This document shows, piece by piece, positions 43,741 to 47,375 of a stretch of DNA of 64,000 nucleotides (positions are counted from its first letter, which is position 1; the number at the start of each line of letters is the position of its first letter). Where the stretch lies: contig JAFWYF010000001.1 of assembly GCA_017522785.1 (NCBI GenBank), forward strand, positions 62,001-126,000, read 5' to 3'. Source of the DNA: Bacteroidaceae bacterium (GTDB lineage Bacteria; Bacteroidota; Bacteroidia; Bacteroidales; Bacteroidaceae). The position numbers and the translations under genes were made by a program. The notes under the pieces are model-generated. The model did no database searches, was not told the origin of the DNA, and worked only from the letters and a program-made list of their open reading frames with translations.

Positions 43741-44619
43741 TTATTTTTCAATGTCGTCTACCATCACTCCGTTAGTGCGGAACTCCGATAACGAATATCC
43801 GGTATGTCGTTTAAAATATCTGTTTAAATAGGATTGGTCGGGGAAATGAAAATCATTGACAAGCTCCTGAAAACTCTTGTGGGTGTACATGAGTGCAACT
43901 TGTAACTCTATGATTGTATAGTGGTCAATAATCTCTTTTGCATTTTGCCCCGAAACTCTTTGGCAAATGGCATTTAGATGACGGGTCGAGATGCTCATCT
44001 TGTCGGCATAATACTGTACGGAACGCTCCTCACGAAACTTTTGTGTTAGTAGAGTACGAAATTCGTAAAAGGCTTTGTCTTTGTTCTCTATTGAGTGTTC
44101 TTTTGCTTGGCTGTCGGTGCCACTTTCAATTCGTTGTATATATAGTAACAGTGCGTTTACCGATAGAATTATATTTTGACGGCAGAATTCGGTGTCTTGA
44201 GGGTTGTTTGTAACCTCTATATCCATTATGTCTATCTGACGGAATATATTGGAAACAAATTCTTTTTCTAACTCGGTGTCGCCACATTTGTGTGGTCGGC
44301 GCTCAATTTTTTGCATTGTTTCGAGGCTGAATGCACTACGCGCTGCAAGCCATATGTGTTTTGATAGTCCTAAAAGACGCGAAGTGAAATCACTTGTAAT
44401 GTCGAGTAGCAAAATATTCGAACCAGTTGGACAAATTATAATTTGCCCACTTGTGAAACGGTGCTTTTGACCGTCAATGGTAAAAAGCGCTTCTCCACTC
44501 ATGCACCAAAATATTGACGTGTGTTGTATCTGGTATGAGTGTTGCACAAATTGTTGAAGAGACGATTTTGTTGTCGCAAACCCTTGCTGTGGTAGTTTCT
44601 TAAGGTATATGTTGTTCAT
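43741..44619 (-). CDS. AraC-family transcriptional regulator
   Basis: 292 residues. The N-terminal half is a cupin-like sensor (WCMSGEALFTIDGQKHRF, GQIIICPTGS). The C-terminal hundred residues form the double HTH of AraC regulators: YADKMSISTRHLNAICQRVSG for the first and ELVNDFHFPDQSYLNRYFKRHTG for the second. Its ligand and targets are unknown. It is separated from the CBM9-like gene by a hairpin at 44644-44682 and ends in its own terminator, so it forms a single-gene unit. No clear promoter box is found between the hairpin and the ATG. Confidence 0.9.
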   Translation of the reverse strand: MNNIYLKKLPQQGFATTKSSLQQFVQHSYQIQHTSIFWCMSGEALFTIDGQKHRFTSGQIIICPTGSNILLLDITSDFTSRLLGLSKHIWLAARSAFSLETMQKIERRPHKCGDTELEKEFVSNIFRQIDIMDIEVTNNPQDTEFCRQNIILSVNALLLYIQRIESGTDSQAKEHSIENKDKAFYEFRTLLTQKFREERSVQYYADKMSISTRHLNAICQRVSGQNAKEIIDHYTIIELQVALMYTHKSFQELVNDFHFPDQSYLNRYFKRHTGYSLSEFRTNGVMVDDIEK

Positions 44620-44784: not shown

Positions 44785-45432
44785 TTATTCAAAGTGTAAT
44801 TCGCCAAAGAATTCGGGACGGTGAAAACTTGGTTCTTTCCATTCAATTACATTCCATGATATGAAATGTGGTGTTGGCAGATTATCGCCACACTTGTAGA
44901 AGTTTGCACTCATGGTTTTACCATCCCATGAGGTTATATCGCTACGGAATAGTGCTTTTGCTGGAATAATTTCTATTAGGCTCCACGATGTTTCTCCTTT
45001 GCGCAAAGGGAAATTCTCGCTTCCGAGTGATGGAATTCGTTTAATGGTGCTTAACAGTTCAATTGGGGCGTCCTCTTTTGGCTCACCTGCAGGGTGCCAA
45101 CCCAAAAGCATTTTGCCAATGCATGTACATTCAAAATTGTAATAATCCATGTTCCCTTTGGGCGATACAAAGAATTCGACGCATGGGTCGGTCCATATTT
45201 TACCGAAGTCTTCGGTAACCAATGTGTGTATATCTTTCTCTGTTACATCGAATTTAATGTAAAGGTTTTCACCGTCATGGAACATTTTGAACGACACTTT
45301 TGGGGTATAAGGATAATCGTTTGGCCAATTGCAACAATCTATGGCATTTGACTCTGTGTTATTGAATATCTGCTCGATACTCTCTTTTGTGTTATCTATA
45401 GGCTTAAATTTAGGAACGTTTATACTTTTCAT
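44785..45432 (-). CDS. CBM9-like carbohydrate-binding-fold protein
   Basis: 215 residues without a signal peptide, matching the CBM9-like (DUF1083-type) beta-sandwich found alone in many Bacteroidota. Recognisable parts are GENLYIKFDVTEKDIHT, WTDPCVEFFVSP and YYNFECTCIGKMLLG, and the ending ISWNVIEWKEPSFHRPEFFGEL. Related domains bind sugars in xylanases; this stand-alone form has no assigned role. It begins 26 bases after the DUF4435 gene on the same strand and is likely co-transcribed, although a functional link is not obvious. Confidence 0.8.
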   Translation of the reverse strand: MKSINVPKFKPIDNTKESIEQIFNNTESNAIDCCNWPNDYPYTPKVSFKMFHDGENLYIKFDVTEKDIHTLVTEDFGKIWTDPCVEFFVSPKGNMDYYNFECTCIGKMLLGWHPAGEPKEDAPIELLSTIKRIPSLGSENFPLRKGETSWSLIEIIPAKALFRSDITSWDGKTMSANFYKCGDNLPTPHFISWNVIEWKEPSFHRPEFFGELHFE

Positions 45433-45458: not shown

Positions 45459-46466
45459 CTATTTATGTTCATCCTCTATCGATTGCAACAATTCTCTTAT
45501 ATCGCGTTGTAACCATTTATAAGGTGTTGCGTCTTTGTAGTTGGTATTTTTGTGAAGCATTAATGTTACATCGCATTGGCTGTGTCGGTACGACGAAAGT
45601 TCATTGTTATATTGTTGCTTGTGGTATGCAAGGCGCTGAATCTCGGTTTCGCGTTTGTTGCGAAGATGGCGACATATTGGTATTAACATTCTAAGTACAA
45701 CGCTATCCATTATGTGATGCCCTTGTATGTAAAGATAAGTCTCTTCCTTTTCAATTCCAAGTTGCTTTAACTCTTTATCCAGTTCTTCTATTTTGGAAAT
45801 CAAGTGTGGAAACCTTTTTCTAAGTATCTCTACCTGATGGTTTACCCGAACAGTTAATTGACGCAAGGAGTGTTCGGGGTTGCCAATGTTGAACGATGTC
45901 AATCGAACGATTTCGCAGAACTTCTGCATGCTCATGCTACTTAAGTCGTGAATACGATAGAGCAGAATATTCCATAGAAACAGAGGATAACAAATCTTTG
46001 AGTATAACTTTAGAAATTCCGAAAAATCTATTATATCTATGTCGTTCAGAGTGCTTTGTACACAAATACGTTTTAAGCTCTCGGCATAGCATTTGTAGTT
46101 TTCTATGGCGTAGGTGTATGTGTGCAGTATATATCTGTTGTTAATCATGCGACGTGATGTCTCTGTTGCTCCTTGCATCAGGTAATCGTAATCGCTGTCC
46201 ACACATGCTATCATATTCTTTCCAAATGCCTTACCCAACATGTTCATCATGGCCTGCTTTTTGCCTTTTGTCAGTTTAGTACGTGCCGGCAACATCACCT
46301 CGAAATGAAATTTATCGTTCTCGAACTCATCGAAAACAGAACGCCAAAACGAAATATCCTCGTAGCTCTCTACGTATGCTACGATTCTGCTTTTGGATTT
46401 TTTTGGTTGTAATGCGTTTGCCGCATTTATAAAATCCGAATTGAGATATTCCGTAAGTCTTTTCAT
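45459..46466 (-). CDS. DUF4435 (TOPRIM-like) protein, AriB-like partner of the AAA ATPase
   Basis: 335 residues. The N-terminal part has a TOPRIM-like pattern: a Glu in a hydrophobic strand (IVAYVESYED, Glu33), then a strand with the Asp cluster ACVDSDYDYL (Asp90, 92, 94), and the YAIENYKCYAE motif at about 119-129 typical of DUF4435. The C-terminal half is helical and charged. In PARIS, the DUF4435 protein AriB is a TOPRIM nuclease released by its ATPase partner to cleave host tRNA. Here it follows an ABC-type ATPase after 20 bases, in the same order as ariA-ariB. Nuclease activity is inferred only from the conserved acidic residues. Confidence 0.75.
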   Translation of the reverse strand: MKRLTEYLNSDFINAANALQPKKSKSRIVAYVESYEDISFWRSVFDEFENDKFHFEVMLPARTKLTKGKKQAMMNMLGKAFGKNMIACVDSDYDYLMQGATETSRRMINNRYILHTYTYAIENYKCYAESLKRICVQSTLNDIDIIDFSEFLKLYSKICYPLFLWNILLYRIHDLSSMSMQKFCEIVRLTSFNIGNPEHSLRQLTVRVNHQVEILRKRFPHLISKIEELDKELKQLGIEKEETYLYIQGHHIMDSVVLRMLIPICRHLRNKRETEIQRLAYHKQQYNNELSSYRHSQCDVTLMLHKNTNYKDATPYKWLQRDIRELLQSIEDEHK

Positions 46467-46486
46467 CCCCCCTATTAATTAATGCT

Positions 46487-47314
46487 TTACTCTTTTGTTA
46501 TATCCTCAATCTCGGTTATGGCATCAATCCATCCGTCCATGATTATTGCAGGAGAATGGGTGCAAAGAATAATCTGTACATTGGGGTTTAATGTGCGTAT
46601 GAGAGTGATAAGCCTTTTTTGCCACTCAATGTGTAAAGAGATTTCGGGCTCATCCATGAATAGTACGCATGGACGATTCTCCTGAACAAGTGTTGTGAGC
46701 ATAATAACCAATAGTTGTTTTTCTCCCGATGATAACAGATAGGGCGGAATTGTTTCGCCGTATTGGTTGAAGAATATTTCATTACTATCGCGTACAATAG
46801 TCTTGCCTGTTGGAGCAAATAGCTCGTCGATAAGGTCCTGAAAAATCTTTTTCGATTTTGTCAGTTCTGTCGCCAGTCGTTGGTCATCGGGGTTACCCGA
46901 TGTAAGCAACGATATAATTCTATTACCGATATTAACCTGATAATTAAGATAGCGACGTTGCAGGTTGTAGAGTTGCCAATCGAGCTCGGTGCGAATGTCG
47001 GCACCCGAAATCTTTTCCAGTAGCTCGCTATTCAGTACCGGACGGTCAATGCTACTGATTACATCGAACTGTATGCTTGTGGCATCTTCGGGGTGAAATG
47101 TGAAACGTACTCCATCCTCGGGGTTTTTTGTAACCAAACGGTTACGCATCACTTTTAACTGTGTTGCAGAACGGTTTATAATGGTGCTTTTCCCAACTCC
47201 ATTACTTCCACTAAGGATATTTACATCGGGGCGTAACTCCCAATAGATATGTTTGCGTTTACTCCATAAAGCATCAATTTCAATGCTTTTGATGTATTGT
47301 GCCTGCTTCTCCAT
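46487..47314 (-). CDS. ABC-type AAA ATPase, AriA-like, upstream of DUF4435 gene
   Basis: 275-residue soluble ATPase of the SMC/RecF/OLD-like class. Walker A GSNGVGKS is at residues 36-43, the ABC signature-like LSSGEKQ at 194-200, Walker B CVLFMDEPE at 216-224 and the switch His in CTHSPA at 253. Between Walker A and the signature is only a short helical insert, so there is no long coiled coil and no transmembrane part. It is first in an operon with DUF4435 and a CBM9-like gene behind a perfect promoter. Domain pairing and order recall PARIS. It could instead be a conserved housekeeping ATPase of Bacteroidales. Confidence 0.82.
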   Translation of the reverse strand: MEKQAQYIKSIEIDALWSKRKHIYWELRPDVNILSGSNGVGKSTIINRSATQLKVMRNRLVTKNPEDGVRFTFHPEDATSIQFDVISSIDRPVLNSELLEKISGADIRTELDWQLYNLQRRYLNYQVNIGNRIISLLTSGNPDDQRLATELTKSKKIFQDLIDELFAPTGKTIVRDSNEIFFNQYGETIPPYLLSSGEKQLLVIMLTTLVQENRPCVLFMDEPEISLHIEWQKRLITLIRTLNPNVQIILCTHSPAIIMDGWIDAITEIEDITKE

Positions 47315-47344
47315 AATCTATGCTTTTCTGGCAATTTTATTTTG

Positions 47345-47375
47345 CAAAAATAATACAATGTTTTACTATTCCAAA
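47345..47375 (-). promoter_or_regulatory. Full-consensus promoter of the ATPase-DUF4435-CBM9 operon
   Basis: The minus strand carries TTTG (47375-47372), exactly 19 bases, then TATTTTTG (47352-47345). Both elements match perfectly. Transcription would start about 25 bases before the ATPase ATG. Confidence 0.75.

Follow-up and report, generated by a model that had tools for sequence, protein, structure and literature searches.

The closest described relatives of the gene pair reported here are the PARIS anti-phage systems, in which the gene for an ABC-type ATPase, AriA, precedes that for a DUF4435 Toprim nuclease, AriB. PARIS of E. coli loses its defence when either gene is absent, and E. coli AriB without AriA is non-toxic at its native level (PMC9122126). 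According to PMC12409363, AriB is a dimeric Toprim tRNase whose active site resembles that of RNase M5, and the OLD nucleases have DNA as their target; PMC11455837 describes how AriA holds AriB inactive by sequestration. The published rule for detecting PARIS is an AAA_21 or AAA_15 ATPase adjacent to a DUF4435 protein, both with scores above the cut-offs (PMC9122126).

The window, which is the whole stretch of 64,000 nucleotides analysed here, contains a compact pair of this kind (Table 1). An earlier note on this DNA had described an ABC-type ATPase gene followed after 20 bases by a DUF4435 gene, behind a perfect consensus promoter and with a CBM9-like gene 26 bases further on, and our analysis reproduced the open reading frames, their strands and both gaps. 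The promoter, TTTG-N19-TATTTTTG, is indeed present; four matches to this pattern occur in the window against 1.8 expected by chance, so the pattern by itself is weak evidence, and its -7 element was found upstream of the ATPase gene in 42 of 46 stretches from the same genus, some genomes having been scanned twice. The CBM9-like gene is real, but it adjoins the pair in none of the relatives examined and therefore lies outside the system. Both it and the AraC-type gene were considered as members and rejected, as neither adjoins the pair in relatives.

Table 1. Positions of the gene pair, its sequence elements and its neighbours in the window
Feature	Position	Strand	Basis or remark
Compact AriA-like ABC-type ATPase, 275 aa	46487..47314	-	AAA_21, PADLOC AriA, AriA structure match
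AriB-like DUF4435/Toprim nuclease, 335 aa	45459..46466	-	PF14491, PADLOC AriB, AriB structure match
CBM9_2 protein	44785-45432	-	Pfam CBM9_2, 227 bits
AraC-type gene	43741-44619		After the pair and the CBM9_2 gene
Promoter, Bacteroidetes-type, TTTG-N19-TATTTTTG	47345..47375	-	Pattern scan; 30 bases before the ATPase ATG
Walker A GSNGVGKST (ATPase residues 36-44)	47183..47209	-	Alignments
ABC signature LSSGEKQ (ATPase residues 194-200)	46715..46735	-	Alignments
Walker B VLFMDEPE (ATPase residues 217-224)	46643..46666	-	Alignments
Switch histidine H253 of the ATPase	46556..46558	-	Invariant in 46 aligned ATPases
N-terminal motif LTEYLNSDF (nuclease residues 4-12), predicted ATPase-docking element	46431..46457	-	Tracks ATPase presence
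Toprim region (nuclease residues 26-115) with E33, D90, D92 and D94	46122..46391	-	AlphaFold2 secondary structure; residues invariant

The Walker A, LSSGEKQ, Walker B (DEPE) and switch-histidine elements that had been read in the ATPase were all found in alignments, in which they are mostly invariant. Against Pfam the protein scores 71.4 bits with AAA_21 (cut-off 27) and 45 bits in an SMC_N/RecF-type match, and the PADLOC model PDLC04164 for AriA covers it entirely at 184.8 bits. AlphaFold2 models of the ATPase and the nuclease were built from alignments of fetched relatives. That of the ATPase (mean pLDDT 87.5) has AriA chains as its best matches among solved structures, with an E-value of 2.1e-13, followed by retron and Septu PtuA; the sequence similarity of the ATPase to AriA is confined to the C-terminal part of the latter.

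The nuclease scores 163.5 bits with DUF4435 (PF14491; cut-off 27), and 187.5 and 127.3 bits with the PADLOC AriB models PDLC02983 and PDLC04165. Its TOPRIM-like pattern of Glu33 and Asp90, 92 and 94, already recognized in the earlier note, holds throughout the core clade, in which E33, D37, D90, D92 and D94 are invariant in every nuclease examined, including the solo proteins described below; the proteins that missed a strict DxD pattern did so because the pattern was too narrow, and all the residues are present in the alignment. The predicted model (mean pLDDT 91.3) retains the Toprim fold, the loss of which the note would have counted against defence. Among 350,542 PDB chains, the model has one significant match, chain 8ux9_A, which is AriB in the PARIS complex (E 2.8e-5, TM 0.44-0.47). 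Sequence and profile searches of the PDB gave no relevant match, AriB being found by fold search, and neither Pfam nor fold search gave a match to RNase M5, the Toprim ribonuclease of 5S rRNA maturation. The lysines K60 and K64 of AriB grip tRNA; a conserved KGKK stretch, seen in the alignment of the core clade, may correspond to them in the core nuclease. The comparison with AriA and AriB that the note had called for thus returned them as the best solved matches of the two models, and its proposal of kinship is supported by both sequence and predicted fold.

The window pair passes the published detection rule (71.4 and 163.5 bits), as do pairs from B. fragilis, P. plebeius and a Prevotella. 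It resembles PARIS of the E. coli B185 type in gene order, in the combination of an ABC-type ATPase bearing Walker A, Walker B and signature motifs with a DUF4435 Toprim protein bearing the catalytic acids, and in its closest solved folds, which were obtained from predicted models. In contrast, its ATPase has 275 residues, about 190 fewer than the 464 of AriA; this size is not strictly defining, and PADLOC does have a compact AriA model. The compact PADLOC pairs (PDLC04164/PDLC04165), with similar-sized pairs on pRK2 and pKp_SB61170_2, are akin to the window pair in ATPase size and gene order, but its 184.8 and 127.3 bits on these models are far below the 324.8 and 302.1 bits of another Bacteroidales lineage (L043). 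Pairs of a compact AAA ATPase and a DUF4435-like protein on two plasmids of 4-5 kb, NC_017636.1 (E. coli W pRK2, L231) and NZ_CP084858.1 (K. pneumoniae, L230), appear to be mobile PARIS-type pairs of minimal size. The DUF4435-like protein of pRK2 is annotated merely as hypothetical, and the pair spans the start of the record.

Two other known systems are more distant. PtuA of retron and Septu systems shares the ABC-type ATPase fold and the signature region with the window ATPase, but it stands behind AriA in both sequence and fold, and its partner is the HNH nuclease PtuB, whereas that of the window ATPase is a DUF4435 protein. OLD nucleases likewise combine an ABC ATPase with Toprim, but as one fused protein with an OLD Toprim, whereas the window has two open reading frames with DUF4435.

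The clade of the window pair differs from PARIS in its distribution. Variable, mobile-linked occurrence is typical of PARIS, although not strictly defining, and the core clade instead has a core, mostly vertical distribution. Among 101 Bacteroidaceae genomes, drawn evenly with one genome per species and including many MAGs, the nuclease is present in 98, and in 73 of the 74 good ones, where the ATPase is adjacent. ATPase matches were found in 100 of the 101 and in all 74 good genomes, although only weakly in G482, which is the sole good genome of the family without the nuclease and which also lacks a convincing ATPase. A second, distant copy of the pair exists in seven of the 101. Within the window's genus, 36 of 37 genomes have the nuclease, with 65-77% identity. 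A scan of named genomes confirmed at least 585 relatives, of which the best 80 come nearly all from Bacteroides, Phocaeicola, Prevotella and other Bacteroidaceae, with the ATPase nearly always adjacent.

Upstream of the pair, the window's genus has a nucleoside kinase gene and an RpoN-like gene, and downstream, in most species, genes read as TrkH, TrkA and Dxs. This arrangement on the downstream side is seen again in other genera and suggests that the locus is old. In the present genome TrkA lies on a different contig from the pair; the downstream side has thus undergone rearrangement, and the CBM9 gene is an incidental neighbour. The neighbours in Bacteroides are MeaB, a DMT transporter and a mechanosensitive channel. 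No conserved neighbour of the pair names a pathway; the neighbours are ordinary core genes that differ between genera, and a pathway assignment based on them was dropped for this reason.

Within the genus, mean identity to the window is higher for the ATPase (82%) than for the nucleoside kinase (73%) or the RpoN-like gene (61%), and the nuclease evolves faster than the ATPase. The ranges of pairwise dN/dS are 0.03-0.06 (nuclease) and 0.02-0.05 (ATPase), many pairs being near silent-site saturation; a nuclease value of 0.14 came from a single pair of almost identical sequences, with very few changes between them. Nuclease distances follow those of the kinase and RpoN genes (r 0.85, a value reached in none of 2000 permutations). 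Low dN/dS together with distances that track the neighbours is what is expected of a resident gene pair. None of 50,697 phage records matched. Near matches to plasmids were two, a Bacteroides and a Phocaeicola record, and the annotated one has chromosome-like content.

Beyond the Bacteroidaceae, homologues in the family f100 are about 30% identical and are mostly all-or-none by genus, so that a description of all other Bacteroidales homologues as patchy was dropped. Clade-level inheritance of AriAB-like pairs may therefore be broader than the window's family. Outside the order, one full-length relative (34% identity) was found among 393 genomes across the phylum.

A further comparison is with a second family of the same order, f107. 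Here the nuclease is present in 75 of 81 genomes, and in 47 of the 47 good ones, nearly always as a single copy, and a true AriA-like ATPase occurs in about 25 of the 81, a reading that excludes weak AAA matches. The ATPase gene lies next to the nuclease gene in eight genera and is unlinked to it in two (g240 and g246), and in eleven it was not found, whereas PARIS needs both components and the window's family has both. Genus g240 has thus retained both genes without linkage; in genome G545 about 152 kb separate them. In the nuclease tree, of which the deep forks are only moderately supported and a few rows sit on very long branches, the solo nucleases are united in one clade (SH-aLRT 92), which belongs to a larger group with paired nucleases (93), and the window's family is also one clade (96). 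With one solo clade grouped with paired nucleases, the tree is most simply explained by the ATPase having been lost once. No replacement partner was recognized among the conserved neighbours of solo nucleases. A more basic N-terminal tail in the solo proteins was also considered and rejected, their net charge being not clearly different from that of paired ones. In three genera (solo loci L173, L177 and L181), a gene that reads as a short SUI1/YciH-like translation factor lies divergently upstream of the solo nuclease.

A short motif just ahead of the Toprim domain, with the pattern [LF]xxx[LIVF][NST]Sx[YFMW], tracks the ATPase. Where the ATPase exists, the motif is present in 146 of 146 core-clade loci, genus g214 being left out: 123/123 in Bacteroidaceae (some genomes counted twice), 1/1 in f98, 13/13 in paired f107 loci and 9/9 in f107 loci that have both genes unlinked. 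It is present in none of the 27 solo loci, and it is lacking in other Bacteroidales lineages wherever this region is readable. Two g214 loci, with a longer or divergent ATPase, also miss it. These loci (L200 and L201, Bacteroidaceae) carry a divergent pair, the ATPase of L200 having about 358 residues, and the g214 pair is possibly a replacement by another lineage. The N-terminal segment is predicted from these sequence patterns to dock the ATPase. As the pattern was written after viewing the same sequences, and as the solo state and the loss of the motif are probably one evolutionary event, which leaves the coupling unreplicated, the coupling of motif and ATPase is a strong hint, short of a test.

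We consider it probable that the pair represents a branch of AriA/AriB that is resident, passed on vertically and engaged in housekeeping in Bacteroidaceae, most likely as an ATP-gated ribonuclease. This explanation is based on the predicted folds, the conserved active sites, the core distribution, purifying selection, the dissociation and loss of the ATPase while the nuclease was retained, and the coupled loss of the motif. The DUF4435 protein would most likely be a metal-dependent Toprim ribonuclease with structured RNA as its target, and tRNA or some other stable RNA would be the first to consider; RNA is suggested as the substrate by analogy with AriB and its likeness to RNase M5. The ATPase would most likely bind the nuclease via the N-terminal motif and would gate or deliver it in an ATP-dependent manner. 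That the two proteins dock physically, and that their role is in housekeeping and not in defence, is what we infer from these data. Since both genes are required for defence by PARIS of E. coli, a nuclease on its own is unlikely to perform the PARIS function; the solo lineages probably use it for something other than PARIS defence, and, by parsimony, the paired lineages may do so as well. However, E. coli AriB alone is non-toxic at native level, so that solo existence by itself is no proof of a new function, and conserved presence by itself is compatible with defence. The faster evolution of the nuclease and the lack of a conserved neighbour that names a pathway also count against the housekeeping explanation.

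PARIS-type defence could have become a fixed, resident trait in Bacteroidaceae, the ATPase sensing phage anti-restriction proteins and releasing a tRNA-cutting nuclease. Membership of the AriA/AriB family by sequence and fold, agreement with the published detection rule (PMC9122126), the compact pairs on small enterobacterial plasmids and the occasional second copies in the family are all consistent with this. Nevertheless, we regard it as unlikely, because the pair is near-universal, usually single-copy, mostly vertical and under strong purifying selection, has ordinary chromosomal neighbours and lacks a match among the phage records, because eleven f107 genera have lost the ATPase and kept the nuclease whereas E. 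coli PARIS without AriA no longer defends (PMC9122126), and because the ATPase is so much shorter than E. coli AriA. The earlier note had seen no mobile-element context, which agrees with the neighbours and the phage search, and had left open whether the pair is a defence system or a housekeeping version of the same machinery; the near-universal, mostly vertical inheritance in Bacteroidaceae favours the latter. It had also held that conservation with vertical inheritance throughout the Bacteroidales would argue against defence, and this is largely what we find in Bacteroidaceae but not in all Bacteroidales.

An internal switch for stress or growth arrest, in which the ATPase would restrain the nuclease and, independently of phage, release it for tRNA cleavage when the cell starves or its translation is stressed, would accord with the sequestration of AriB by AriA (PMC11455837), with the conserved active sites and with the very strong constraint on the ATPase, but the solo lineages, which keep an intact nuclease without the ATPase, make it improbable. 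That the pair serves DNA repair or recombination in the manner of OLD/RecF, with DNA and not RNA being cut, is highly improbable, for although the OLD arrangement also unites an ABC-type ATPase with Toprim, OLD nucleases act on DNA (PMC12409363) and the ATPase has an SMC_N/RecF-type match, AriB is the one solved structure that the nuclease matches, and the ATPase matches AriA best, then retron and Septu PtuA.

The housekeeping reading bears on surveys of PARIS. Our searches of the open literature found no study of the core pair. Because its scores exceed the published cut-offs in every genome that was tested, the published PARIS pattern may largely reflect Bacteroidaceae taxonomy. Defence-counting software likely records the core pair as PARIS, which probably inflates PARIS counts in gut Bacteroidales, and we think that it supplies many of the PARIS calls of the published survey. 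In its widest form, to which we would give about an even chance, the proposal is that PARIS has a housekeeping sister of common origin with the defence system, namely an ATP-gated Toprim ribonuclease that belongs to the core genome both of Bacteroidaceae and of a second family, where the nuclease has been released from its ATPase and works alone, and that a sizeable share of reported gut PARIS is not defence. If the role is indeed housekeeping, these bacteria would provide a natural setting for studying an AriB-type nuclease outside infection, and the lineages with unlinked or solo nucleases would allow a direct test of what the ATPase does.
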